Virus record (IMG/VR): IMGVR_UViG_3300027972_000052
Span: 1 to 23,484 of that record
Direction: 5' to 3' (one strand)
Source: a virus
Length of the DNA stretch: 23,484 bases
The stretch's first letter is position 1, and every line of letters begins with the position of its first letter. The notes below the pieces were generated by a model, which saw only the letters and a list, made by a program, of their open reading frames with translations, was not told the DNA's origin and did not search any database. The translations under genes and the position numbers were made by a program. Shown piece after piece: positions 4,088 to 23,130 of this stretch.

Positions 4088-5206
4088 TTACCCCTGAATC
4101 CAAGAGCCAATTTTTAACGCGAGCCATACCAAGGGCATACCCGGTATAAACCACAATCCCGGACTCTTGTTCACTGTATCAATAAGATCCTGCTCTTTTG
4201 TTTTCCACCAGTGAGAGTCCTCTATTGCTGATTCGTTAATGGCGTCCGCCTCCCACCTTGCATACATAGCATCAAGGTACTCGTCTGGACTTGAATACCC
4301 ACCCATCTCGCGCACCATCTGGTCGGTGAGTTGGTTAATCTGCGACTCTATGTTCGCGGAAACCTGACGGAACTGGCTCTCGTCCACCTGTTCGAGAGTC
4401 TGCCATTCCTGCATGGTCTGAGACATGGACATGAGATAGTTCTGATATCCTGTCTGCAATTGATCGAACCTGAATTGGAGGTAGTCCCTCCCAGAGATGG
4501 CCCCCTGCTGAATAAGCTGTTGGAAGTACTGATTGTTCGCATTCACGGCCGAGACGGCCTGATTGAACACTCCGAGGTTCTGCTGAGTCTTCTGCTGTAG
4601 GTAGGAACTCTGAAGTTGAGAAGTCATTTCATAGGCGGCTTGGAACCCTCCCAGACCACCGCGCTCCCCAAAGATAGATTCGAGTTGTTTCCCGATCTGC
4701 TCCTCAGCCTGCCGCATCGCTACCCGCATGGACTTGTCCTGCTCCTGCATGAAGGAAGAGTTAGCAAGAGTTTCAAGATAGGCGTTGGCCGCGCTTGCAT
4801 CTGTCTGGGCCGCGAAATTGGGGTCGCTCATTCTCTGGGCGTTCTGTGCTTGCATAGCTGACCACTGTTCGGGAGTCATCCCGTAAAGCCCGGCCGCGTA
4901 CTCGTTAGCCCCGGCCATGTTAGCAGAACTGTTGGGATTCCATCCTCTAATCTGAGCCGCGAGGTCATCCATCCCGCCCTGTTGCTGGTTGTAGCGGGTC
5001 TGCCAATCAGAACCTTCCCACTGCATGGGCTTCCAAGCATTCTGCCACTGGCTAAGAGACGCTTGGGCCGTGTTAATCTTAGTATTCCAAGAGTTATACT
5101 GATCCCAAATAGCTCCACTAATAGAGGCTCTATGGGCAGTTTTCCACGCCTGATACTCCTCAGCATTTAGCCCGGAAGGAGGGGCAATCGGTAGTTCAAA
5201 TGCCAT
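4088..5206 (-). CDS. Gln-rich putative internal virion protein
   Basis: This encodes 372 residues, starting at a TAATG junction with AGAGGA upstream. The chain is strikingly rich in Gln, Ala, Met, Ser and Asn, with predicted long helices, for example residues about 140-310 containing many Q-x-x-Q spacings. The last 25 residues turn hydrophobic (LWFIPGMPLVWLALKIGSWI), a plausible carboxyl-terminal membrane segment or amphipathic anchor. Gln/Ala-rich helical proteins with a hydrophobic end, encoded directly after the tail nozzle gene, resemble ejection proteins of short-tailed phages in general character. I cannot assign a specific family, and the function is inferred from composition and position. 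Confidence 0.78.
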   Translation of the reverse strand: MAFELPIAPPSGLNAEEYQAWKTAHRASISGAIWDQYNSWNTKINTAQASLSQWQNAWKPMQWEGSDWQTRYNQQQGGMDDLAAQIRGWNPNSSANMAGANEYAAGLYGMTPEQWSAMQAQNAQRMSDPNFAAQTDASAANAYLETLANSSFMQEQDKSMRVAMRQAEEQIGKQLESIFGERGGLGGFQAAYEMTSQLQSSYLQQKTQQNLGVFNQAVSAVNANNQYFQQLIQQGAISGRDYLQFRFDQLQTGYQNYLMSMSQTMQEWQTLEQVDESQFRQVSANIESQINQLTDQMVREMGGYSSPDEYLDAMYARWEADAINESAIEDSHWWKTKEQDLIDTVNKSPGLWFIPGMPLVWLALKIGSWIQG

Positions 5207-7188
5207 TAGTATTTCCTCTTCTCTACTTCAACCGAGAATCCCAGAAGACGGGCGTCACACTTGGAGTCGTGAGCGATATACACACCATATGTGTATCCGT
5301 CGATACCAGGGGGGATTCCCAAGTAGGTTATGTCGTTACCGCTTCCCGTGGCCGCCGTGTACTGTGCCGAGGCGGTCACTTCTCCCGCCGCGTTGTTCGC
5401 GTAGTGCTTGATCGTGTACACCCCGCCGCCCGTAAGGGAAACCTGTCCGAGAACGAGTTTGAGCCTCCTGAACAACTTGTTCTGCTGTCCATTACCAAAG
5501 GGCATATCCCTTGTTCTTATAACCATGGGGATAGTTGCGGTAGACCCTATTAAATCGTAGTTGCCTGTTTCGAGTTGATCCAACCTTGCGGTAGAGGTTG
5601 CATTCACTACAGCCATGAGGTTACCGGTGTCCCCGGCCCCCGTGTAAGGTAGGAACTGGTTTACCGCGTACCCCGTGAACTTGTAGAAGCTCATCCTCCC
5701 GTCCCCCACATCGTCAAGCCTGTAGGTATCGGGGTCAAAAATGAGTGTGTAGGAGTTGGATGGGAAGGATACCCAGTACTCGCTATTGATCTTCGTGGCC
5801 GCCGCGTTGGTAGCCGTGAAAGCGTCAAAGTCAGACTGGATGTGCTTGCTAAGTTTGAGGAGTCTGGACCCGTTCCATCCGTAGATACCGTCACGGGCCA
5901 CGAAGTAAATCTCCTCATTCACGAGGGCCGCAGACCGCTTATTGATCGGACCCTTCGTGTTGTTCATCAGCTTCGTTGAGAAGTTCTCCCACGAGTTCCC
6001 AGAGATACCGTAGATCGCGTTGTCGAGGAGGACTGCGAGATAGTCCACATGGGGAACCATGGCCTGAATATACCCTCCTTCGGTGAAGTACTCTTTGTTC
6101 TCCTCGCGCCACCCCTTCAAGGTGGAACGGGGAGAATGGCGAAGCCAGTTGCCCATACCGAGGAACAGGTGACTCTTGTGCGTCGCCACGGTATCGGGCT
6201 TGTCGTTAAGACAGAGTTGGGTAAGGTACTGGGAATGCTTCACCTTCACGTAGTCTGCGGCCCACGTAACAGAACACCCGTTCTCCACGATAGCCCGCAT
6301 AGCGTAGACCCCTCCCACCGTAGAGTTCACAGTAGCGATCTTGTCTACCAGAATCTCGTTGGTGCTTCCGTCGATCGGGAAAGTCATTTCTATTACTTTG
6401 TCGCCAGCCGAGGCCCAGGTCGGAAGGGTAGTAGGAGTGAACCCTATCCACCCCGTCGCGCCGCCGCTTGAAGCCCTCCCGTAGTACTCCCACGTAAACC
6501 GGCCCGCCGTTATAGTGCTATTAGCCATAACGCCGTAAAGCTCGACCCTGTTGAACGTGTGCCCGCACCCTACCCAGAACCCACTTGTTCCAGAAGTAGT
6601 GGCGAGGTCAAAGTCGTCCACGGTAACAGACTGGGCGTCCACGGTATCCGTAACGTAAGCCGTAGTAGTTAGAGAGGGGAAGTACTGCCCAACGTCCCAC
6701 GAGTCGTTATCGTGGGTCCGCGTGTCGTATCTCTCGACGGTATCGAGAAGAAAAGAGGATGCCGAGGTACGCATGACTATAGGCTTATCATACCCGTTGA
6801 CTGCGACCACGCGCTCGTCAAGGACCGCGAACTGTACATCGTTCCCGTTGGCAAGGACTGCCCCAGTATAAGTCATAGTGGCCGCGTCAGCATCAAATCG
6901 AGAGAAGGTAGTGTAGGCTGTGTTAGTACCGTAGCGCAGTTCCACGGCGGCCCCCGTAGGCTCCACCGCAAGAATCGTGTACCACACGGAAGCCAACTTC
7001 GCCCTGATACCGCCCCTCACAGTTCCCGTGAAAGAGGTGAGAGACGCCTTCCCCTTTCTCTTCTTTAGCCCGTCCCGCCAGTACACGTTCTCTGCGGTAC
7101 GAAGCTCGGAGTTCTCCATGAGGTCGTCTGGTACATCCGTGAAGTACCCGCCCCTGAAGTTTGCGAAGTCGAACTGCTGTGCCGCCAT
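5206..7188 (-). CDS. Tail nozzle / stabilisation-like structural protein (podovirus tail)
   Basis: This encodes 660 residues, starting at a TAATG junction with GGTGAG upstream. The amino end (FDFANFRGGYFTDVP, then NVYWRDGLKKRKGK) matches the common opening of podovirus tail proteins: an RGG-type start, then an Asn followed by a Lys/Arg-Lys-Gly segment. The rest is beta-strand-rich, with recurring short hydrophobic strands separated by Gly, Asn and Asp, as expected for a beta-propeller. A central block around residues 375-450 (DYLAVLLDNAIYGISG, IYFVARDGIYGWNG) looks like successive propeller blades. In short-tailed phages such proteins form the nozzle below the adaptor ring, and here it directly follows the adaptor candidate. 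The structural assignment is fairly confident; the precise ring is inferred. Confidence 0.82.
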   Translation of the reverse strand: MAAQQFDFANFRGGYFTDVPDDLMENSELRTAENVYWRDGLKKRKGKASLTSFTGTVRGGIRAKLASVWYTILAVEPTGAAVELRYGTNTAYTTFSRFDADAATMTYTGAVLANGNDVQFAVLDERVVAVNGYDKPIVMRTSASSFLLDTVERYDTRTHDNDSWDVGQYFPSLTTTAYVTDTVDAQSVTVDDFDLATTSGTSGFWVGCGHTFNRVELYGVMANSTITAGRFTWEYYGRASSGGATGWIGFTPTTLPTWASAGDKVIEMTFPIDGSTNEILVDKIATVNSTVGGVYAMRAIVENGCSVTWAADYVKVKHSQYLTQLCLNDKPDTVATHKSHLFLGMGNWLRHSPRSTLKGWREENKEYFTEGGYIQAMVPHVDYLAVLLDNAIYGISGNSWENFSTKLMNNTKGPINKRSAALVNEEIYFVARDGIYGWNGSRLLKLSKHIQSDFDAFTATNAAATKINSEYWVSFPSNSYTLIFDPDTYRLDDVGDGRMSFYKFTGYAVNQFLPYTGAGDTGNLMAVVNATSTARLDQLETGNYDLIGSTATIPMVIRTRDMPFGNGQQNKLFRRLKLVLGQVSLTGGGVYTIKHYANNAAGEVTASAQYTAATGSGNDITYLGIPPGIDGYTYGVYIAHDSKCDARLLGFSVEVEKRKY

Positions 7189-8177
7189 TAGCTCACCACT
7201 TTTGGCGGGATCGTGCTACCTCCGGATGGGAAGAGAGTCGGATTGTTATTCGCTTCCCGTATCTTGTAGTCCGTGCAAATATCGTTGAACGCCCGCTGGT
7301 GATAGATAGACTTGTCAAACTCGTGCGCCTCGTCAAACAGTTTTGCCGCCGCCCAGTGGATAGGGGCCATGTGAACCTCTTCTGGCAGGGGGCAGGAAAC
7401 AGAGTCACTTGACCCGTCCACCCCCAGGTCCGTGGGGAAGCCCGTATAGAAAATCTTAAAGTAGTCCTGCTCCACCGGCACCGGCTCAAGCCTGATGAGC
7501 TTGTTCTTCACCGAGTAGTACTGCGGTGCGCCCGTAGAATAGGGCTTGATGAAGCAGTCAAAGGGGGCTGGTACGACCTCCGTATCTCCGAACATGACAT
7601 ATTCCATCTCAAGGAATCCCGAAGGCAGAGACTGCTCCACGTTGCAATTCAGGGGGATGGCCCCCGTGAGAGTAGTATCTGCGATAGAAAGCGCGCCCCC
7701 CCATACCCAATCGTTAGCGTCGATGTACCTCTGATCGACAGGCTCCGTAGACGAGATTGCGGTTGGGGTTCCACTTGGCGACATATAGAACGTCCAAGAC
7801 GAGGCCGTCCAGCCCATAACCACACTTCCAGACCCGCCCCCTGCTACCACAGCGGCATTAACATTTGAAGCCATGTGAGCCGCCACGGTGGTCGGGGTCG
7901 CGTTCGTCAGGGTAGAGGAGGCAACCGGTACATCCGTGGCCGCCATCGCATCGTCACCGCCGCTGATGGTGAGATTGACGGCGAAATTAGCATCCAGATC
8001 GAACTTGGGTGTGAGAACAATGAACGCTTCCGTGGCGATACCGTGGACCCGTTTGGAGAACTCCCTGCACCCCTCGTTAATGTACATCTTAGTTGCGTCT
8101 GAGGTCGTAGAGATAGTGTTGGCTCCCGCCGAACGGGTCCATCTTTCCGCGAGGACAGTTTGTGTAGATAATGTCAT
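7188..8177 (-). CDS. Head-to-tail adaptor (connector) protein
   Basis: The chosen start is the ATG at 8175-8177, giving 329 residues (MTLSTQTVLAERW...). It overlaps the endonuclease stop as ATGA and has GAGGAG nine bases upstream; an in-frame upstream start at 8207 would overlap more and lacks such a site. The amino end contains SDATKMYINEGCREFSKRV, an arrangement typical of phage adaptors, where short helices begin the chain. The middle (about residues 55-190) is a Thr/Ser/Val-rich beta insert. The carboxyl part has LPEEVHMAPIHWAAAKLFDEAHEF followed by a helix around FDKSIYHQRAFNDICTDY, as in SU10/gp6-like adaptor proteins. It lies between capsid and nozzle genes, the expected place. The beta insertion makes it longer than a minimal adaptor. 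Confidence 0.78.
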   Translation of the reverse strand: MTLSTQTVLAERWTRSAGANTISTTSDATKMYINEGCREFSKRVHGIATEAFIVLTPKFDLDANFAVNLTISGGDDAMAATDVPVASSTLTNATPTTVAAHMASNVNAAVVAGGGSGSVVMGWTASSWTFYMSPSGTPTAISSTEPVDQRYIDANDWVWGGALSIADTTLTGAIPLNCNVEQSLPSGFLEMEYVMFGDTEVVPAPFDCFIKPYSTGAPQYYSVKNKLIRLEPVPVEQDYFKIFYTGFPTDLGVDGSSDSVSCPLPEEVHMAPIHWAAAKLFDEAHEFDKSIYHQRAFNDICTDYKIREANNNPTLFPSGGSTIPPKVVS

Positions 8178-8695
8178 TCCAAATATCTCCTCGCCCTTCC
8201 AAACCACTCGGTGTCATCAAATGCCGCTATTTGTCTATTGCACCCATGGCATAGCAACCCCCTTACCTTCCCCGTTTTATGATCATGGTCAACAACGGTA
8301 GCCGGCTTGTTGCATAGGGCACAGTGACCACCCTGGTTCTCCAGCATGGTTTCCCACTTCATCTTTGAGATTCCATACTTAATACAACGAAGTGCCCATG
8401 TATCGGTGGGGGCGCATTCCTTGCAGATTCTTTGCTTATTACCAGTGGGCTTGTATTCCTTTTGGCAAACCTCACATATCTGGGGTTTCAGATTATCCGG
8501 CCTTCCGCCCTTCTTTGTATACCCATGGAACCGAGATAGGTTTACCTTCGTGCCTCGGGCAGTCGCAGAACACTTCAGGGAACAGTATTTTGATCTCCAC
8601 AAACGTGAAGCGCACTGAGATTGATATACTTTCCCACAGAACTCACAGGTCTTGAAGACCGTCCCTGCTTTTGCTCTGCCCTCCGCCAGAGTCAT
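8174..8695 (-). CDS. Recombination endonuclease VII-type HNH nuclease, probably free-standing homing endonuclease
   Basis: This encodes 173 residues, starting at a TAATG junction with GGAGGG upstream. The carboxyl half has the endonuclease VII/HNH pattern: C125-x2-C128, VDHDH at 135-139, a basic VRG at 144-146, and C149-x2-C152 followed by N153; D136-H139 and the Asn form the His-metal finger. Before this lie two further Cys clusters, C17-x2-C20 with C38 and C42, and C74-x2-C77 with C91-x2-C94, likely zinc-binding DNA-recognition modules. The family cleaves DNA (Holliday junctions in T4; many relatives are mobile HNH genes). It interrupts a run of virion genes and is not obviously structural, which suggests a mobile homing nuclease, though a packaging or junction-resolving role is possible. 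One 60-base stretch (8221-8280) is 48% GC, lower than a capsid-gene stretch (57%). Confidence 0.92.
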   Translation of the reverse strand: MTLAEGRAKAGTVFKTCEFCGKVYQSQCASRLWRSKYCSLKCSATARGTKVNLSRFHGYTKKGGRPDNLKPQICEVCQKEYKPTGNKQRICKECAPTDTWALRCIKYGISKMKWETMLENQGGHCALCNKPATVVDHDHKTGKVRGLLCHGCNRQIAAFDDTEWFGRARRYLE

Positions 8696-14750: not shown

Positions 14751-14951
14751 TCAGACCCGAGGAGGAGTAGGGCCGCGATAAATGCCCTGGGGGGAGTTTG
14801 CGACAGGCTTGAACCCGGCTGGGTTGCCTCTCATACCCACGTTTTTAGACTGGAACAGCGGTGAACCTCCTTGCATCTGCGCCATAAGACGCTGGATTGT
14901 TTCAGGGGGCGCACCGAGTCCAAGAAGTAGTTCATACACGTTCTGTGCCAT
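14751..14951 (-). CDS. Small hypothetical protein before the head module
   Basis: This encodes 66 residues starting at the ATG at 14949-14951, which overlaps the cytidylyltransferase stop as TGATG; GGGGGG lies upstream. An in-frame TTG one codon earlier is unlikely to be used. The amino half is helical (VYELLLGLGAPPETIQRLMAQMQ); the second half is Gly/Pro/Asn-rich and ends IYRGPTPPRV. No motif or family is recognised. Its tight coupling to both neighbours suggests co-translation with the sugar cassette end and the zinc-ribbon gene, but it has more the character of a small head-module protein. Confidence 0.65.
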   Translation of the reverse strand: MAQNVYELLLGLGAPPETIQRLMAQMQGGSPLFQSKNVGMRGNPAGFKPVANSPQGIYRGPTPPRV

Positions 14952-15664
14952 CAATACCCCCCAAAATATCGGATAACATCACGATATCCGAAATCTCCAC
15001 TATTAGCAGACACAAATTTGCGTACTTTGTCAAGGTCTTGAACAGTATCAACGGAAGTGTTAATGTATGAGTAATCGTTAACGTCCCTGAGTTGGAAAAA
15101 CTTAAACAACGCAGGGTTGTCGTATGCGTAAAGTGTTACGTGTTCACGATATAGGGGATCGTCTGATAAATGATACATACGCTTTAGGGTGTTTCTGTGT
15201 AGAACTTCTACGTCCATCCCCTTGGGGTAGGAGCGCCGCAGAACGTTGGTGCTTATGTCAACCCTATTGTCGATATAGCCATATATCGTATTGTCAACCA
15301 AAACGGGATCAATTAGGGGGCAATCCCCACATACTCTTACTACCAGTTCGGCGTTACTCCAATTAGCGGCCCTTATGTATCTACCCAGTACGTTGTTCGG
15401 GTCGCCCGTATCGAGGTACGCCCAACACCCTTGAGCTTGGGCGTACTCTGATATCTCTCCGTCAGGGGTCGCCACGACGATCTGATGCAAGAGCTTGCTC
15501 TTCTTGAGCCTGTCGATAACCCACCCGATGACTGGCCTTCCGTTAAGGTCGGCCAGCATCTTACGGGGGAACCTCTGGGAATTGAGCCTCGCCTGAACAA
15601 TCGCTATGGCAATCGGAGGGTCATCTCTTCGAGAGTAGATGGACTGTGAGGTCGTCAAACCCAT
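14951..15664 (-). CDS. SpsF/PseF-like cytidylyltransferase (nucleotide-sugar activation)
   Basis: The reading frame is secure but its exact start is not: an ATG at 15664 has AGGAGG directly against it, whereas a TTG at 15658 has the same AGGAGG at a normal six-base spacing. With the ATG it has 237 residues. The nucleotide-binding signature ARLNSQRFPRK (residues 25-35) and the metal-site motif GDCPLIDP (113-120) mark the COG1861 (SpsF) / CTP-transferase family, also close to CMP-pseudaminate and CMP-Kdo synthetases. Family members link CTP or another NTP to an acidic or amino sugar. It overlaps the methylase gene upstream and a small gene downstream. The 3' part is unusually AT-rich (15001-15180: about 39% GC by my count), unlike neighbours at 50-58%. 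The exact sugar is unknown. Confidence 0.85.
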   Translation of the reverse strand: MGLTTSQSIYSRRDDPPIAIAIVQARLNSQRFPRKMLADLNGRPVIGWVIDRLKKSKLLHQIVVATPDGEISEYAQAQGCWAYLDTGDPNNVLGRYIRAANWSNAELVVRVCGDCPLIDPVLVDNTIYGYIDNRVDISTNVLRRSYPKGMDVEVLHRNTLKRMYHLSDDPLYREHVTLYAYDNPALFKFFQLRDVNDYSYINTSVDTVQDLDKVRKFVSANSGDFGYRDVIRYFGGY

Positions 15665-16214
15665 CCTCCTTCCCCGCGAATCCCTTGTCAATAAGTTTAA
15701 GCCCGTACTTCTTCTCGTATACGTCCCCGTAGGGGCCTCGGAAAAGAGCGCCAGCCTTCCCCCTGTAATGAATCTCCTCGAAGATGGGGTTGTCGTATTC
15801 CATACAAAGGACGTACCTGTTGGAACACCTGATAATCTCCTGCATGACGATATCCACTTCTTCCGGCTTCTGGTGGATCAGCACTCCTGCCGTGAATACC
15901 ATGTCAAAATAGTCATCCCTGAACGGGAGGTCGAAGGCAGAACACCTAACCGCATTAAGCTCTCGATACTTTGTGCGAAGCCCCGTCAAGGCCCTCTGGT
16001 TTATATCACATCCCCACGCATTACTGGGGGCCGGCAGGTACTTGGCAAGAAGGCTGATGTTCTGGCCCCCGCCGCACCCGACCTCCAAGACATTCTTAAA
16101 CTTAGCCTTGTAGACAATATCCCCCCAGAACTTAATCCGGGGGGAATAATCCTTGTCACACCTCACGGTGTAATCGTCTCCAAACTGTCCTGCCCACAGA
16201 GCCTCGTTACTCAC
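15621..16214 (-). CDS. Pseudaminic-acid biosynthesis-associated SAM-dependent methylase
   Basis: This encodes 197 residues. The chosen start is the GTG at 16212-16214, which overlaps the amidotransferase stop as GTGA and has AAGGAG at a normal spacing; a GTG two codons upstream is less well placed. Motif I is LEVGCGGGQN (about residues 43-52), the acidic residue after strand 2 is D70 in GCDIN, and FDMVFTAGVLIH (103-114) is motif IV. Beyond the methyltransferase fold, the opening LWAGQFGDDYTVR, the segment RCSNRYVLCMEYDNP and the later YRG and DDLT motifs match the family annotated as pseudaminic-acid biosynthesis-associated methylase (TIGR03587) as I remember it. In bacteria it sits in flagellin-glycan loci. 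The methylated atom is not known. Confidence 0.88.
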   Translation of the reverse strand: MSNEALWAGQFGDDYTVRCDKDYSPRIKFWGDIVYKAKFKNVLEVGCGGGQNISLLAKYLPAPSNAWGCDINQRALTGLRTKYRELNAVRCSAFDLPFRDDYFDMVFTAGVLIHQKPEEVDIVMQEIIRCSNRYVLCMEYDNPIFEEIHYRGKAGALFRGPYGDVYEKKYGLKLIDKGFAGKEDGFDDLTVHLLSKR

Positions 16215-17257
16215 TTCCACTCCTTTTTGTGCCTGTTAACAATGTCAAAGAACTCTTTCTCGGAATACCCCATGGTGTCGCAGAAGTCTTTCAGCGCCCA
16301 CGGATCAAGAACGCTGTCGTTCTTCGCTATCAAATCCTGGCCCTGAGCATAGGTAAGAGTCCCGTCCCGTACCCTTCGCGTGGCGATATCCGTGACCCTC
16401 TGCCACCCGAACTTGGGGTACTTGAGCCACAGGTGGACCATGTAGGCCACGGAGTCGATCTGCTCGTAGTTCTCGATGGTACCCTTTCGGTCCCACTCCC
16501 CCGTCAAGTCCCTGAACCCCATCTCTTTTGCAAGAGCAAGGTTCGTTACCGAACTCCACTGGAAGAAGTGGCTCATGTACATCACGAGAGGGTCGTTCTC
16601 CCCAAGCATCCACATGGGAAGGATGGAATCTACCTCCTTGGAAGTCACCTTGTAGCGGTCCCACATGGGCCTCTCGTCGTTGCACTGGTTAATCATCTTC
16701 CTGATGGTCGCGTTGGCGCTGAAAATATCATCCTCGGAAGTCCCGTACTCGTAGGCCGAGTTCTCCCCGAAGACAACAAGGGGGATACCCATCTGCTGTG
16801 CAATTCTAACCGGAATCGTGTAGATGGCGTATTCTACAAACTTCAGGGCTTCTCCCGTGGCCTCGAAAGCCGCTCGCGTGGCCCGCTTAAACAGGTTGTG
16901 CGAGATAGTGTACTGCCAGTGATTCAGGTTGTATTTGGTGATAAGGTTACGCAGATTGTAACTTCCCGCCTGAGTATGGGTAAAGGAATCCGTCACGGTA
17001 ACGAGAAGCGGGTTCATTCCGAAAGAGCACATCTGATGTACAAGGAAGTGAGAATCTTTACCGCCAGAGACAGGAATCAAACAGTCGTACTTGTGTTTCC
17101 CCCTGTAAGCGGACAGAATAGCCTCCAAATCCTGCTTCCGCTTGTCCCAGTCGATATCCTTACGCTTCTCGTAATTGATACACGCCCCGCATACACCATC
17201 CCGGAAGATCAGCCCGGGTCTGTTGTTCGGGAACCCGCACCTGCTACACCTTTCCAT
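16211..17257 (-). CDS. N-acetyl sugar amidotransferase, WbpG/PseA type (PP-loop ATPase)
   Basis: This encodes 348 residues. The start is the ATG at 17255-17257 with AGGAGG four bases upstream; an in-frame TTG further up would be preceded by no site. C4-x2-C7 and C23-x2-C26 form a zinc-binding head; SGGKDS at 64-69 is the PP-loop that binds ATP, and TDSFTH, a Glu/Asn-rich GENSAYEYG block and the EWDRKG segment follow. Together these match the N-acetyl sugar amidotransferase family (WbpG of Pseudomonas O-antigen; PseA of Campylobacter flagellin glycans), which converts an acetamido or keto/acid sugar to an amidino form using ammonia from a HisH/HisF-like glutaminase. No such partner is encoded in the window. 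It is the first enzyme of the cassette and starts within the 3' end of a small membrane-protein gene. Confidence 0.88.
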   Translation of the reverse strand: MERCSRCGFPNNRPGLIFRDGVCGACINYEKRKDIDWDKRKQDLEAILSAYRGKHKYDCLIPVSGGKDSHFLVHQMCSFGMNPLLVTVTDSFTHTQAGSYNLRNLITKYNLNHWQYTISHNLFKRATRAAFEATGEALKFVEYAIYTIPVRIAQQMGIPLVVFGENSAYEYGTSEDDIFSANATIRKMINQCNDERPMWDRYKVTSKEVDSILPMWMLGENDPLVMYMSHFFQWSSVTNLALAKEMGFRDLTGEWDRKGTIENYEQIDSVAYMVHLWLKYPKFGWQRVTDIATRRVRDGTLTYAQGQDLIAKNDSVLDPWALKDFCDTMGYSEKEFFDIVNRHKKEWK

Positions 17258-17354
17258 ATTTCCTCCTGATAATTTCGACAATTCTTTTGGTGATATCGGT
17301 TATTGTGTACCCGACGCAAACTCCAATAAGCAAAAGAACAACGGTATGAAGCAT
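17244..17354 (-). CDS. 36-residue predicted single-pass membrane microprotein
   Basis: The ORF is ATG to TAG, 36 residues, beginning 9 bases after the terminase stop. A purine-rich AGGAGGAGGA run lies immediately before the ATG. The protein reads as a short amino end, a hydrophobic helix (LHTVVLLLIGVCVGYTI, about residues 2-18) and a positively charged tail (TKRIVEIIRRKYGKV). It overlaps the amidotransferase start by 14 bases, in a different frame, so the two are probably coupled. The architecture suits a membrane-anchored helper, a small holin or antiholin-like protein, or a tether for the sugar enzymes. None of these is shown. It is too short for a homology call by eye, but its codon reading and site make it credible. 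Confidence 0.6.
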   Translation of the reverse strand: MLHTVVLLLIGVCVGYTITDITKRIVEIIRRKYGKV

Positions 17355-17362
17355 TCCTCCTC

Positions 17363-18916
17363 CTACTTGCTGAAGCGGTCGCCATACCCCATGGCGGTCT
17401 TCTTCTTGCACAAATCCATGATTGTGATGCCTTTCTTCACAAGGCCCAACGGGTCTTTCCAGTACTTGAAACTGAACTGCTCCACGACAGAGAAAATCAT
17501 GGATAGGGCATCTACCAAGTCATCCTTTCCTGCGTAGTTCTTGTTATATAGACCCATCTGGGTCATAAGGTCGGTGAGACGCGAGTTTATCGCTATCCTT
17601 CGGGAGCGCACGAACGACCCCAGAGTCAGGTTTATCCTGTCATACTTGTCCCTCTTTGTAATCTGGATAGGCTCGATAGGGAGGGATATGGGCTTTCTTT
17701 GCGCGGCCTCCCAGTTCGATTTCTTCATGTCGATAATGTAGCGAAGATGTTCCTGCAAGCCGAACTCAATACCGATCTTCCTGGGGTTGTACTTCTCATT
17801 TAGCTGGAGAATGAACTCCGCTGTCTGGTCGCCCGTCTTCTTGAAGTGGAACGCTTCTTCCACGAACACGTATCCTATCTCGTTCACGGCGGCCACGATA
17901 ATCGCAGTCTCGTCGGACCACGTATTCACAGTCGCCGCAGGGTCAACAGCCATGTAGTAGTTGTACTTTCCCTTGGGAAGCTCCTGGTACTGAGGCTGGG
18001 GAGGAGGGAAAAGCTGATCCTCCATGGGTTGCGGATCGCAGTAATACTGACACGACACCTGATAAGGCGTCATGCGCTTACGAAGACGGTCCATGATCTT
18101 CTGGTTGAAGTAGGAGTAGATAAACTTCCCATTTTCTATCACGGGCCGAATATAGATGTTATCGAATATCTTCTCTTTGCGGATGAAGTTGGTAAGGTCT
18201 TCGTAGTGGTACGGAGTGCCGATGTAGATTTCCTGCCCTCCCGGCTCAAGGACGCCCTGAATATACCCGTACCACTCCCTTGTCTTGTTCAACTGCTCCA
18301 TGGTCTGAGAGTTCTTGTCAGTCACAAGATCGTCGTAGATATGAACGTCGAAGTGCTTCCCGATGGGGTTCCCCCCGATACCAAAGACCTCGATCTGGCA
18401 CTCTTGGGGAGGGGAGATGCTTCCTTTCGGGTCGCGCCAGACCGTGAGTTGGCTCGCCCTGTTCACCTGCCAGCCCGTACCCTTCGGACCCGGGTCAACC
18501 AAAACCTCGGAAAACAATTGTATAAGCCGAGGGTTTGTAAGCATCCTTTTTATGCTCGCCAACTCCTGTTCGAGAAGGTCTGCCGTGGAGGAATAAAGGG
18601 CTTGCCGGATAAACGGGTCGCGGAGGATGTTCTGGATGAGCTTGATCTTGACCCACGAAGTCTTCATGTGCCTTCGAGGGACGATGCACATAACATCCTC
18701 GTTGGTAGACAGAACACCGGCAAGCCATCTATGGAAAACGGGGTCCACAAGTGGGCGGCCCCGCTTGTCTTTCGCCTCTTTCATGCCGAGAATATCATAT
18801 CCCAGAAAGAATAGGTCGGTAAGACACTTCCACTTCACCCATAGGGTCGCGGCTTCATTCTCGTCCTTGGTTTGCTCAAGGAACTCCTTGTATTTCTTGG
18901 TTTCTGTCTCTGTCAC
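17363..18916 (-). CDS. terL: Terminase large subunit (DNA packaging ATPase/nuclease)
   Basis: This encodes 517 residues. The start is GTG at 18914-18916, the only in-frame start after a stop at 18929-18931, and overlaps the upstream stop as GTGA; the binding site is weak. The ATPase half has the Walker A-like PRRHMKTSW (80-88), Walker B VHIYDDLV (191-198, with D195-D196) and coupling motif YIGTPYH (231-237). The nuclease half has the metal-binding acids D325 (MAVDPAA), E384 (IGIEFG) and the acidic KDDLVDA motif (464-470, D465/D466/D469). It powers DNA packaging through the portal and cuts concatemers. No small terminase gene is recognised in the window, and it is followed by sugar genes rather than directly by the portal, an uncommon arrangement. 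Confidence 0.95.
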   Translation of the reverse strand: MTETETKKYKEFLEQTKDENEAATLWVKWKCLTDLFFLGYDILGMKEAKDKRGRPLVDPVFHRWLAGVLSTNEDVMCIVPRRHMKTSWVKIKLIQNILRDPFIRQALYSSTADLLEQELASIKRMLTNPRLIQLFSEVLVDPGPKGTGWQVNRASQLTVWRDPKGSISPPQECQIEVFGIGGNPIGKHFDVHIYDDLVTDKNSQTMEQLNKTREWYGYIQGVLEPGGQEIYIGTPYHYEDLTNFIRKEKIFDNIYIRPVIENGKFIYSYFNQKIMDRLRKRMTPYQVSCQYYCDPQPMEDQLFPPPQPQYQELPKGKYNYYMAVDPAATVNTWSDETAIIVAAVNEIGYVFVEEAFHFKKTGDQTAEFILQLNEKYNPRKIGIEFGLQEHLRYIIDMKKSNWEAAQRKPISLPIEPIQITKRDKYDRINLTLGSFVRSRRIAINSRLTDLMTQMGLYNKNYAGKDDLVDALSMIFSVVEQFSFKYWKDPLGLVKKGITIMDLCKKKTAMGYGDRFSK

Positions 18917-19374
18917 CTTCGACGCCTGTTACGAGAGTGGATAACTCCCCCCATATACTTCGGTTTCTTCGCGGCCGCAGTAGTGGTCGTCGTACCCCCC
19001 GATGTATCCAGATTCCCGACAAGGGCCGATATCGCTTCCGTGATCTGTTGAATGTAGTGAAGTAGAAACATCGTCCCGCCCAGAACCGCTGTTCCAACTG
19101 TCATACCCGCGAAGGCCATCAGAGAGAAGATACTCCCCACTGTTGTCGCGGCCCCCGAAATGGTCGAAGTAAGGAAGTGAATAAGGAATGCCATCCCGGT
19201 CACTCCACTCGTCACCGCCACCGCTTCCAAGAGCAGGACATGGAGAAGGAATATGTTCCCAACTGTCGTAGATACGCATGTTATTGATCCTGCAAGCTCC
19301 TGTATTACTACAACCCCGGCGGTCCCTTGGAACCCGTCGCTCTGGAACCCTGTAGGCTGAAAACCCTCGGCCAT
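18913..19374 (-). CDS. Hydrophobic repeat protein with amino-terminal GFQ repeats
   Basis: This encodes 153 residues, starting at a TAATG junction with the 252-residue gene; no clear ribosome binding site is visible. The opening has three five-residue GFQ-x-x units (residues 4-18). Residues about 27-125 form roughly five degenerate 19-25-residue repeats with a [V/I]-S-x-[V/A]-[S/T]-T-x-x-G-x-hydrophobic pattern. The middle is strongly hydrophobic with a Met/Leu/Phe run, so it could be taken for several membrane helices. Because similar repeats occur in the 381-residue protein that lies in the fibre module, a fibrous virion role is the better inference. The carboxyl end is Thr-rich then basic (RNRRRR). 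No family is recognised. Confidence 0.7.
   Translation of the reverse strand: MAEGFQPTGFQSDGFQGTAGVVVIQELAGSITCVSTTVGNIFLLHVLLLEAVAVTSGVTGMAFLIHFLTSTISGAATTVGSIFSLMAFAGMTVGTAVLGGTMFLLHYIQQITEAISALVGNLDTSGGTTTTTAAAKKPKYMGGVIHSRNRRRR
19000..19296 (-). repeat. Degenerate protein repeats in the 153-residue gene
   Basis: About five units of 19-25 residues share a small/hydrophobic plus V-S or S-G-A-x-T-T-x-x-G start followed by a hydrophobic stretch (for example CVSTTVGNIFLLH, SGVTGMAFLIHFL, GAATTVGSIFSLM). Units are highly diverged. They resemble the repeats in the 381-residue protein, where the same S-x-x-x-G-x-hydrophobic phasing appears. Confidence 0.5.
19321..19365 (-). repeat. Three GFQ-x-x pentapeptide repeats
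   Basis: Residues 4-18 of the 153-residue protein read GFQPT, GFQSD, GFQGT. The units are perfectly periodic at five residues, in-frame with the gene. Such Phe-Gln-containing short repeats may be a docking tag. I recall similar motifs in other phage proteins but cannot check. Confidence 0.7.
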
Positions 19375-20132
19375 TAGTAATACTGCTCAAGAATAATAAG
19401 GCCCTGCGCCCCGTCCCCGCCCTTTACGCTACTTGAAGATGCTACATACGATCCCCCCCCACCGCATCCATAACCACCGGCCGTAGCTCCATTCGCCCTG
19501 TATCCCGCGACCCCCTGATATCCATAAGCATGAGCGGCCATACCACCGTATCCCCCATTCCCCACCGTACCCGAAATCCTTATTCCCTTTTCTCCAGACT
19601 GGCCGGTAATCATAAACGTCCCGTTGGAAGCAGATCCCCCAACTCCTCCTGCCGTAGAAGCGAGAGACGTACCTACCGTTATCGGTGCCGCAGTAGCGCC
19701 CCCGGGAAGGGCTGTAAACGTACCAGGTGCCGCCTCTCCAATCCACGTTGTAATCCCGACTGCTCCGGCGGCAGAACCAGAACCACCGGCCCCCCCTGTT
19801 CCGCACTTATACTGATAAGTAGTTGTAATCGAGGATATGCCTATGAAAAACTCGCAATACCCCCCGGCCCCGCCCCCGCCACCGGCGGCCCCGTTTGCGG
19901 CAGAAGCAGAAGCCCCAGCGCCCCCGCTTCCCCCTCCCCACATCCTCACAAATATGGCCCCCACCGAACCGGAAAGAGTAATCGTAGAAGAAACCGCGGT
20001 AGTTAGATAAAGCGTATCTTTGTACGTATACCCCAGAATCGTGTGGCTTGCGTTCCAGTGGGAGGGCATGACCCACGAAGAGGTGGCGTCATCGGCCACC
20101 GGGTTAGTGTACGGATGCTTAACGACAGGCAT
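19374..20132 (-). CDS. Glycine-rich tail adhesin-like protein
   Basis: This encodes 252 residues, with GAGG six bases before the ATG. The opening has NPVADDATSSWVMPSHWNASHTI, a tail-fibre-type amino end that recalls N-x-x-x-D...P-S-x-W-N-x-x-H segments in other phages. From residue about 68 onward the chain is dominated by Gly-Gly-Gly runs separated by short hydrophobic segments (RMWGGGSGGAG, GGGGGAGGYCEF, GNGGYGGMAAH, GGYGCGGGG), as in glycine-rich distal adhesins that use packed polyglycine helices to hold receptor-binding loops. The ending LIILEQYY is a common closing strand. It probably sits at the tip of the tail fibres and contacts the host. The exact partner is inferred. Confidence 0.8.
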   Translation of the reverse strand: MPVVKHPYTNPVADDATSSWVMPSHWNASHTILGYTYKDTLYLTTAVSSTITLSGSVGAIFVRMWGGGSGGAGASASAANGAAGGGGGAGGYCEFFIGISSITTTYQYKCGTGGAGGSGSAAGAVGITTWIGEAAPGTFTALPGGATAAPITVGTSLASTAGGVGGSASNGTFMITGQSGEKGIRISGTVGNGGYGGMAAHAYGYQGVAGYRANGATAGGYGCGGGGSYVASSSSVKGGDGAQGLIILEQYY

Positions 20133-20135
20133 AAG

Positions 20136-20414
20136 CTACCTCGCGCTCATGTAGATTTGCAGTTGCCCGCTGTTCAGACTCGCGGCCCTCGGGTTCTCGC
20201 ACCACAATCTGTCAAATACCCACCCGTCTGTGAAGTTGGCTCCATCGGCCTCCCCGACAAAGATGGTGTTGCTCGCGCTGTTCATCACTCTACACACTTG
20301 CCCTGCGGCAGTGGCCCCGACCCACCTGAGAGAGTTAAGAATGAATACGCCCGTAGCAATATCTCCGGAGGCCGTGAGGGTGTAAACACCAGTTCCCGTT
20401 CCCGTAACAGCCAT
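20136..20414 (-). CDS. Small beta-rich structural protein of the fibre module
   Basis: This encodes 92 residues, with GGAGG five bases before the ATG and a TAATG overlap with the upstream gene. It is predominantly beta-strand with few charges (YTLTASGDIATGVFILNSLRW, IFVGEADGANFTDGWVFDRLW, NSGQLQIYMSA). Proteins of this length with this ladder of Ser/Thr/Gly and Trp are found beside phage fibre genes; from memory they resemble a family of small virion proteins. No catalytic motif is present. It is probably a minor tail or capsid surface protein; confidence in function is low, in the reading frame high. Confidence 0.72.
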   Translation of the reverse strand: MAVTGTGTGVYTLTASGDIATGVFILNSLRWVGATAAGQVCRVMNSASNTIFVGEADGANFTDGWVFDRLWCENPRAASLNSGQLQIYMSAR

Positions 20415-21559
20415 TAGAACCTCCCTCTGTGAATCTTCATGTAGATACGAAGTTTGTTTATAGCGGACCCACCTGTTTTTGTAAGGTTTCCAATTATCGT
20501 AGACACCCCGTCAACAGCGGCCGTGAAAAGGCGGATTCCAAACAACTGTAGACTGCCGAAGGTAGAACTGACAGCATCCACGGCCCCCGCAAGAACTTGG
20601 AGTACGCCTTCTCCAAATGTTTCCAGATTCCCCACGGTAGAGGAAACAGCCGCGAAAGTGTCCGAAAGAAGCCTGTGCATTATGTAGGGAAGAGTATTCG
20701 ATATACTGCTTACTGCGGCCACCGTATTGTTAATGAGGTAATGGAAAATCTGGGGCAACAGAGACGGTAGACTGCTTATCGCATTTACGGCCCCCGCAAG
20801 AGCATGGATGATTTGTTCCGATGTGATAACTATGTTCCCGTAAAGCGTCGTGGCCCCCGAAACAATGTTATCCACAAGATAATGATACAAGTAAGGCAAG
20901 AAGTTTGACAGGCTACTCACTGCCGAGACTGCGTTGTTCACCAAGTAGTGATAGATATAGGGCAGAAGTGTATTAAGGCTCGCGGCCCCGGAAACAACGT
21001 TGTTAACAAGGTAGTGGTAGATGTAGGGGAGGAAAGAATTGGTGGAAGATGCGCCAGAAATACCTCCCGCCAACGCAATCCCCCCAGACGCGGCATACGT
21101 GACATAAGCGATAGATTCCCAAGTTCTGATAGATTCGGCCCCCGCATCAAACGGGTCATCAAGCGTTGTGTCACCGAGATTGAAATATCCGCTGTTACCC
21201 GTCCCCGTTGCCTTTGTGTAATTATAACACCCGTCGTTTACATAAACCACCCAATAAGAAGTACTCGCGGCCAAGGTTTCTACATAATCAGTATTATACC
21301 ACCCCTCTGGACTTAGCGCCGGAACCGTTATTGTTACAATGTCTCCCACCATGGCCCCGGGTTGGTCATTGGCCGAATCGTCTTCATATACCGCACAATA
21401 AATATGTTTATCTGATCCAGCCGTGTTTTTAGTATATACATAAAACTTGGCAGTCACGCCACCGCTTGCGTCTGTTGTATCTTCGCTATACCAAGCATAG
21501 TTTGCGTTAGCGCCTTCGTCTGTCAAGCTGGTTGTTTCGGTAAACCCAAGCTCCGCCAT
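20414..21559 (-). CDS. Repeat-rich tail fibre-like protein with beta-sandwich-like head
   Basis: This encodes 381 residues, starting at a TGATG junction with AGGA upstream. Residues about 1-155 look like a beta-sandwich of the carbohydrate-binding or cell-wall anchor type: KFYVYTKNTAGS, a DDSANDQPGAMVGD turn, and SYWVVYVND. Residues about 167-360 contain nine degenerate 19-25-residue repeats, several of which carry LPYIYHYLVNN. The last 20 residues are basic. The chain is rich in Ser, Thr, Ala and Leu. In the fibre module, after the beta-helix gene, a fibre or adhesin role is likely. Part of the gene is AT-rich (21241-21300 is about 38% GC by my count). Confidence 0.75.
   Translation of the reverse strand: MAELGFTETTSLTDEGANANYAWYSEDTTDASGGVTAKFYVYTKNTAGSDKHIYCAVYEDDSANDQPGAMVGDIVTITVPALSPEGWYNTDYVETLAASTSYWVVYVNDGCYNYTKATGTGNSGYFNLGDTTLDDPFDAGAESIRTWESIAYVTYAASGGIALAGGISGASSTNSFLPYIYHYLVNNVVSGAASLNTLLPYIYHYLVNNAVSAVSSLSNFLPYLYHYLVDNIVSGATTLYGNIVITSEQIIHALAGAVNAISSLPSLLPQIFHYLINNTVAAVSSISNTLPYIMHRLLSDTFAAVSSTVGNLETFGEGVLQVLAGAVDAVSSTFGSLQLFGIRLFTAAVDGVSTIIGNLTKTGGSAINKLRIYMKIHRGRF
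20480..21061 (-). repeat. Nine degenerate 19-25-residue repeats in the fibre-like protein
   Basis: Units begin with V/I-S-x-[A/V]-[S/T]-[S/T] and run about 19-25 residues. Units 1, 2, 3, 5 and 6 carry an LPY/LPQ-x-x-H-x-L-x-x-x block (LPYIYHYLVNN); units 4, 7, 8 and 9 instead have S/T-T-x-x-G-N/S-I/L. The alternating types look like an old expansion with later divergence. The DNA copies are visibly related, for example the repeated AAGTAGTGATAGAT-like stretch on the plus strand. Confidence 0.7.
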
Positions 21560-22731
21560 CAGTATATCCTAATGTAAGAAGTGGCCGCACCCTGCAAGGG
21601 GTGGGGATAGGTATATTCGGTATACGGGTAATAGGCATTGGCTCCAGACCCCGAAAATGTCATATCGGAAGCCCCGGCCCTCGTGGGATATGTCTCGCTT
21701 CCCCCGCTTGAGGCGGGAGCGTGAAGGAAATAATCGCGGTCCTCCTGAATAAAAGTAGAATCAGCTCCATTTTGCAAATGTATCCCGGCCGCGCTACCAT
21801 TCCTGGTATTGCCCCAAAAGAAAGAGTTCATAATCTGATCTTCTGCCGCCCACGCTCCGTCGAGTGGAGAGAAAAATGCCGCCTGCCATCCCTCCTCTTC
21901 ACTTAATACGATCTCGGTAGACGAGGTAACATAGGTAAAGGCATTGTTGTAACAAAGAATAGAGCCGCCCCGGAAATACAGAACCCTGTAAGACTTCTGG
22001 TAGTCAAACGTGTTCTCGTAGACCTCCACGATGGGCTGGCCCCTAAAATCCCCAGTACCATCATAGTAGTTCTGGTTTCCGTGAACATCAAATGGGCAAA
22101 AGTCGTAAGTGTACGCAGAGGCGTCGAAGGTATTGTACCGAATAACCGTTCGCGCCCCTTCCTGGTGGTAGATGCACTCGTTGACCTCAATACACGCCCC
22201 GTCTTGGGTAAAAGTGTTGTCCTCGATAAACGTTGCGTGTTCGGTTGCGGCGGCAATAGTCCTTCCCCACGCGTAATTGTTATCTCCAACAAGCATTATC
22301 GCCCTGTTACAGTTCAGAAACTCGTTGTGATCTATCAGCCCCTCGAACCAACCGTCGATATATATCGAATCGGTCCCATTCGAGTTTCTCCAAAACTTAT
22401 TCCCGTGTATTCTGACGCTATCAAGGCAATATGAATTACCCTTGTCACCAGAAATAAGGACTCCCTTCCCATCTTTGAAGCATATTCCACTAAGATCAAG
22501 GGCTTTGTCCGAGCCGGGGTTGAATCTGAACAACTGCCGAGTCGCACCGTCTGCCGTGATTATGGTAGATGCCGTTCCAGCCCCGACTATGGTAAGCTCT
22601 TTTGTAACGGTTAGAGTCCCTGCCCACGTCTCCGATCCGGCCGGGATAACAAGAGTATCCCCATCGTTGCAAAGACCCATCGCGGTATTAACTGCCGCAA
22701 GCGTAGCATCTGCGGCTACTTGTGTCGCCAT
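21559..22731 (-). CDS. Right-handed beta-helix protein, candidate depolymerase/tailspike
   Basis: This encodes 390 residues, starting immediately after the upstream stop (TAAATG); the ribosome binding site is weak. After an amino end with VNTAMGLCNDGDTLVIPAGSE, the classic pectate-lyase-like opening, there follow ladder-type units: LTIVGAGTASTIITADG, VRIHGNKFWRN, LIDHNEFLNC, FIEDNTFTQDG, VIRYNTFDAS, VEVYENTFDY, ILCYNNAFTY. The I/V-x-x-N-x-F repeats, each starting a helical coil, mark a right-handed parallel beta-helix. The ending YTYPHPL is common in such proteins. Phage members often degrade capsule or lipopolysaccharide as depolymerases, but a structural fibre is possible; no catalytic triad is assignable by eye. 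Confidence 0.83.
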   Translation of the reverse strand: MATQVAADATLAAVNTAMGLCNDGDTLVIPAGSETWAGTLTVTKELTIVGAGTASTIITADGATRQLFRFNPGSDKALDLSGICFKDGKGVLISGDKGNSYCLDSVRIHGNKFWRNSNGTDSIYIDGWFEGLIDHNEFLNCNRAIMLVGDNNYAWGRTIAAATEHATFIEDNTFTQDGACIEVNECIYHQEGARTVIRYNTFDASAYTYDFCPFDVHGNQNYYDGTGDFRGQPIVEVYENTFDYQKSYRVLYFRGGSILCYNNAFTYVTSSTEIVLSEEEGWQAAFFSPLDGAWAAEDQIMNSFFWGNTRNGSAAGIHLQNGADSTFIQEDRDYFLHAPASSGGSETYPTRAGASDMTFSGSGANAYYPYTEYTYPHPLQGAATSYIRIY

Positions 22732-23130
22732 TTAGTCCAGACTGATCGTCACCGACCCCACCGCAAAAGCCGCCACATCGTTCGTGGCAATAGTTCTTGC
22801 CGCAGTCAGAGTGCCCCACGCAATCATGCTTCCAGTAGCCGAATCCGTGAGCATGGCAAAATGCGTCAGAGAACCACCCCAGGTATTCGAGGAAGTTGCA
22901 TAAGTGATCGTGGCTACGTTGTAGATCGACCCTCCGGAGTCGGTGCAAGTAGACCAAGCGCCCGTGGACTTCCTTGCATAAGAACCACCCGTTGCCTCAG
23001 TTCCGCCCGAAGCATCAGAGGGGGCCACAGTGAACAAAGCCATCCACATCGTGGTAGATGCAATAGGCGCATCGTTCCCACCGATCGCATTCAGGATGTT
23101 CTTCTCAAAATAATTAGTAAAACTACCCAT
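22732..23130 (-). CDS. Small tail protein, Gp80-like family, second copy
   Basis: This encodes 132 residues, with AGGAGAAG shortly before the ATG. Residues 14-50 carry NAIGGN, MWMALFTVAPSDASGGTE and a GGSYARKS segment, the hallmark of small phage tail proteins I know from mycobacteriophage Gp80-like proteins; the later THFAMLTDSATGSMIAWGTL matches the same family. It shares these segments with the partial gene immediately upstream, so the two are tandem paralogues. It ends adjacent to the beta-helix gene. It is probably a minor tail or fibre-tip protein. The family name is recalled, not searched. Confidence 0.78.
   Translation of the reverse strand: MGSFTNYFEKNILNAIGGNDAPIASTTMWMALFTVAPSDASGGTEATGGSYARKSTGAWSTCTDSGGSIYNVATITYATSSNTWGGSLTHFAMLTDSATGSMIAWGTLTAARTIATNDVAAFAVGSVTISLD

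Follow-up and report, generated by a model that had tools for sequence, protein, structure and literature searches.

A 381-residue podophage protein carries nine units of a degenerate repeat that are under selection, have a helical hydrophobic period, and are encoded within a cassette of fiber-type genes. We tentatively favor the reading that this is a two-part, probably virion-associated protein, in which a predicted N-terminal beta domain is joined to a helical array acting as an oligomerizing stalk. The gene lies in an IMG/VR record of 23,484 bases (the window, meaning the whole stretch analyzed), which is a fragment of a phage known from metagenome data only. The features are listed in Table 1.

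Table 1. Positions of the repeat protein, its parts, and other genes in the window
Feature	Position	Strand	Remarks
Internal virion proteins	1-2898, 5206-7188		
SU10-type adaptor	7188..8207	-	PF24175; indicates short-tailed phage
KdsB/PseF-like cytidylyltransferase	14951-15691		
Methyltransferase	15621-16220		
N-acetyl sugar amidotransferase	16211-17281		WbuX, 9e-76
Large terminase subunit	17363..18916	-	Profile matches
153-aa neighbor	18913..19374	-	N-terminal tag (FQxxG, three times), then a hydrophobic array and a basic tail; possible sister of the repeat module
FQxx[G/A] x3 N-terminal tag of the 153-aa neighbor	19327-19362	-	Also at loci L024-L143
Gly-rich tail-fiber-type protein	19374..20132	-	PF21722; phrog_863
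Repeat protein gene	20414..21559	-	381 aa, ATG start; abuts or nearly abuts neighbors at start/stop
GG linker and basic C-terminal tail	20417..20482	-	aa 360-381; sequence TKTGGSAINKLRIYMKIHRGRF
Repeat array	20483..21064	-	aa 166-359; nine units, most likely a hendecad-spaced amphipathic helix
Second 25-residue unit	20585..20659	-	aa 301-325; predicted helix break, aa 308-311
First 25-residue unit	20792..20866	-	aa 232-256; predicted helix break, aa 243-246
N-terminal region	21095..21559	-	aa 1-155; beta strands predicted at aa 27-115 with low confidence
Beta-helix protein	21559..22731	-	Same cassette as the repeat gene
Gp80-like protein (podophage GP4 fiber I)	22732..23130	-	PF23140

Repeat units and their helical period

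Self-similarity of the repeat protein was maximal at an offset of 22 residues (mean BLOSUM62 score of 1.25, versus 0.06 for the best of 500 shuffles), with further peaks at offsets 69, 91, and 47, and a local repeat scan ranked the protein second among all ORFs examined (z = 63). The nine-copy degenerate repeat of the original prediction is thus far above chance; its position moves from 20480-21061 to that given in Table 1, and the units measure 22, 22, 22, 25, 22, 22, 25, 22, and 12 residues in array order, rather than 19 to 25. The block LPYIYHYLVNN, which the same prediction had singled out, recurs exactly in two units, as LPYLYHYLVDN in one, and in diverged form in two more (LPQIFHYLINN and LPYIMHRLLSD). 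Units 4, 7, 8, and 9 differ from the LP type in their second halves. Because the second halves run LP, LP, LP, G, LP, LP, G, G, end, the description of two alternating unit types was inaccurate, and a 69-residue super-period (22+22+25) fits the unit order better. Pairwise, the five 22-residue LP units are identical at 36 to 73% of residues versus 41 to 67% of bases, and between units pS is near saturation at 0.68 to 1.10, versus a pN of 0.20 to 0.56. Synonymous sites being near-saturated and protein change limited, the units are therefore old duplications under purifying selection, in agreement with the predicted selection on a phased repeat.

Hydrophobicity along the array displayed a single dominant period of 3.64 residues, with a power of 5.0 (99% of shuffles, <1.98). 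Harmonics at 22/k are inherent in a 22-residue repeat, so unit columns were also permuted in concert in 1000 arrays, only 9 of which reached the observed helix-band power (period, 3.65). The hydrophobic stripe, at 3.64 to 3.65 residues per turn, is as expected of hendecad coiled coils, for which the value is 3.67, compared with ~3.63 for an ideal straight helix (PMC4786415). In hendecad notation, the first half of a unit has L at position a, I or L at d, an aromatic residue or Met at e, and L at h, and the second half is V/A/V/L-like; P at b and H at f are invariant across the LP units, giving conserved L, P, I/L, aromatic, H, and L at positions a, b, d, e, f, and h.

Single-sequence AlphaFold2 modeling of the full protein gave strands in the N-terminal region and helices from aa 144 onward (pLDDT 39), and the array alone was modeled as helices at aa 173-242, 247-262, 264-307, and 312-364 (pLDDT 48), with breaks within the two 25-residue units (Table 1). 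Both monomer models are helical over the array; since their confidence is low, we took from them, as suggestions, nothing beyond which parts are helix or strand and where the breaks fall. Most likely, the array is an amphipathic alpha helix whose spacing is that of hendecads (11 residues), each 22-residue unit equaling two hendecads, and it likely forms a helical rod or bundle.

The original prediction had pictured an aromatic ladder in a fiber shaft or stacked solenoid. A beta-type structure of this kind would suit the location in a fiber cassette, and similar small phage proteins carry beta-looking 20- to 23-residue repeats (e.g., L037 and L126, by inspection only). Nevertheless, the band power in the array is 0.67 for beta versus 4.24 for helix, and the array is helical in both low-confidence models, which makes a beta solenoid unlikely and the beta reading as a whole very improbable. 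The array may nonetheless form a fiber shaft, which would then be a helical coiled coil instead of a ladder.

Phage type and gene neighborhood

The window encodes a P22/SU10-type portal, the SU10 adaptor, scaffold, capsid, internal virion, and terminase proteins; the phage is therefore a podophage. No tail-tube gene was found among the profile matches of this 23.5-kb record, a fragment. As a podophage has no tail length to measure, the repeat protein is no working tape measure. A tape measure gene would belong to a long-tailed phage and be preceded by genes for the major tail protein and the tail chaperone, and such surroundings were not found here.

The cassette, a compact run of small genes, comprises, in order, two Gp80-like fiber genes, the beta-helix gene, the repeat gene, a 92-aa gene, the Gly-rich fiber gene, and the 153-aa gene, followed by the terminase gene. 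The repeat gene is thus placed among fiber genes, as a tail fiber or tailspike gene would be. Its N-terminal region had no significant family match in Pfam, NCBIfam, PHROG, or PDB, including any recognizable anchor or receptor-binding domain family, and had no relative at a meaningful E value among GenBank phages.

Stalk model and likeness to tape measure proteins

In the stalk model, the L-I-Y-L/V-A-V-L stripe (positions a, d, e, and h) would pack on its counterpart in other chains or in other segments of its own chain to give a stiff rod or bundle, with Ser, Asn, and His on the opposite face turned to solvent. The 25-residue units, by their three additional residues, would interrupt the helix as hinges or turns. 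The array might then extend as a rod of up to ~28 nm (190 residues x 0.15 nm) or fold into a bundle of ~10 nm. As a stalk, it would cause the protein to oligomerize and would carry the beta domain at a distance from the virion. We favor this model because the period beats permuted arrays and shuffles, positions are conserved, breaks fall at the 25-residue units, the units are under selection, the gene is in a fiber cassette, the geometry is that of hendecads, and the array has no strong transmembrane peak (maximum KD hydropathy, 1.53). Counted against it are the low charge (10 of 205 array residues), which is unusual in a soluble coiled-coil shaft, the proline recurring in five units, the low model confidence, and the lack of a recognizable virion-anchoring N terminus in the repeat protein. 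Tail-fiber coiled-coil shafts likewise set a repetitive helical stalk beside a beta domain within a fiber gene cassette; the repeat protein differs from them in being almost uncharged, in matching no Pfam fiber repeat, and in having no known anchor.

The repeat had originally not been recognized as a named domain. This holds for Pfam, NCBIfam, and PDB, whereas PHROG tail length tape measure profiles match the pattern over residues 170 to 370 (phrog_5493, 1.3e-10; phrog_58, 9.1e-8). Two shuffles matched nothing, a column-permuted array gave weak matches only, and the reversed array still matched tape measure families (best, 7e-5). Because the reversed sequence also matches, much of the tape measure score reflects periodic composition. 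In tblastn, the array matched Paenibacillus phage tape measures with an E value of 0.04 and 27% identity, and the tape measure of Paenibacillus phage Bob (UYL91812.1) contains a hydrophobic array, with prolines, that repeats every 11 residues and has a period of 3.66 to 3.67 and offsets of 11, 22, and 44. The array and the tape measure hydrophobic region thus share a pattern of the same physical kind; their likeness is one of pattern rather than of proven ancestry. Both are 11/22-residue periodic, uncharged, Pro-containing, and helical. In siphophages, however, the region lies within proteins of >1000 aa in long-tailed phages, whereas the podophage array is a stretch of 200 residues that follows a predicted beta domain, and the likeness is partly compositional. 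Descent of the array from a tape measure fragment moved into a podophage would account for the tblastn match and for forward PHROG matches far better than reversed ones (1e-10 versus 7e-5), but we give it little credence, as the reversed array still matches, identity is low, and flanking tape measure domains are absent.

Similar helices are known from other phage proteins. The tape measure of TP901-1 has mostly helical 11/18-residue repeats marked by Trp or Phe and used in tail length (PMC5099701); it shares with the array the 11-residue basis, aromatic markers, and mostly helical character, whereas the array is built as 22+22+25 with LP-aromatic-H blocks and has no tail to measure. The solved, decameric tube of the phiX174 DNA pilot protein H is made of hendecads and heptads (PMC7354561). 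Protein H is a phage protein with hendecad helices, like those predicted for the array, but it is Gln/Lys-rich and unrelated in sequence.

These parallels bear on a further reading, in which the array would be released when the phage infects and would insert into a membrane or the cell envelope, comparable to the hydrophobic region of tape measures or to the helical DNA pilot tube of phiX174; its helices would assemble with hydrophobic residues facing lipid and Ser and Asn lining the inside, and the basic tail would point toward DNA or cytoplasm. The period shared with the Bob tape measure, the PHROG matches, and the hendecads of the phiX174 H tube are consistent with it, and the near absence of charge, together with a basic tail in both the repeat protein and the 153-aa neighbor, keeps it alive. 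Nonetheless, we regard insertion as rather unlikely: the array is less hydrophobic than tape measure regions (maximum KD of 1.53 versus 2.0 to 2.7), its gene lies in the fiber cassette away from the internal virion proteins, and membrane insertion of the TP901-1 tape measure could not be shown by its authors (PMC5099701). A more elaborate version, which we consider quite unlikely, is that of a detachable podophage module that would do what tape measures do in crossing the membrane, aiding passage through the envelope without a long tail, with a hydrophobic hendecad array of variable length swappable between N-terminal domains (the beta domain or the FQ tag of the neighbor). If the stalk model is right, hendecad arrays like those of tape measures would also be used as building blocks in other proteins, here of short-tailed phages, and the clean 22+22+25 repeat would be suited to testing how unit length sets helix breaks.

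Relatives and neighboring genes

Protein and repeat-profile scans detected no close homologue of the repeat protein in IMG/VR, nor was one found in GTDB representative genomes or, for the whole protein, in GenBank phages. The sequence is therefore new to those collections, and the kind of structure that it appears to encode, a helical hendecad array, is already known; distant relatives may exist, because these scans reach close relatives only. Cassette relatives were undetectable in four viral records related via capsid and terminase genes (L003, L005, L006, and L007), two of which, L003 and L005, have a terS-like gene before the terminase gene (assigned by eye from ORFs). An untuned regular expression for an assumed beta-sandwich motif, which misses the query's own kind, found no relatives among the fetched ORFs.

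Relatives of the beta-helix gene occur in L022 and L023. On inspection of L022, the beta-helix relative ends in a hydrophobic tail and is followed by an adjoining gene with IKAITDVIPDAGALT repeats and then a relative of the 92-aa gene; hydrophobic helical stretches therefore recur in such cassettes, on different proteins. A 377-aa protein next to a beta-helix relative (L022:7291-8424) has a 34-residue repeat, AIKAITDVIPDAGALTDLLAAI, and no NCBIfam match.

The hydrophobic array of the 153-aa neighbor contains the motifs VSTTVGNI, AATTVGSI, and ISALVGNL. These motifs and one weak match (E value of 0.0024, 25%) make the neighbor a possible sister repeat module of the array, but the unit HMM, which scored it not above shuffles, speaks against this. 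Its gene had no close homologue in GTDB genomes. The DNA pattern of its FQ tag was found in at least 120 IMG/VR stretches, and among the matches listed the tag was within the first 25 residues in 106 of 120 proteins. The bodies that follow are mutually unrelated, ranging from coiled coils ending in DDEEALLLL to beta-like 20- to 23-residue repeats, and the tag looks like a widespread, apparently unnamed module of small phage proteins. One FQ-tagged protein (L126:4824-6278, minus strand) has 22-residue repeats, TVSASNELLPSLYTNSQTFYSP, with a hydrophobic period of 3.68, which resemble, by eye only, the LLPxLY block of the repeat protein.

Beyond the terminase gene, the window carries genes for an amidotransferase, a methyltransferase, and a cytidylyltransferase (Table 1), and the same region of a relative (G003; L012:10445-13122) has PseB-, PseC-, PseI-, and PseH-like genes. 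Although most of these matches are below NCBIfam equivalog cutoffs, the gene set suggests a phage-borne nonulosonic (pseudaminic-type) acid pathway.
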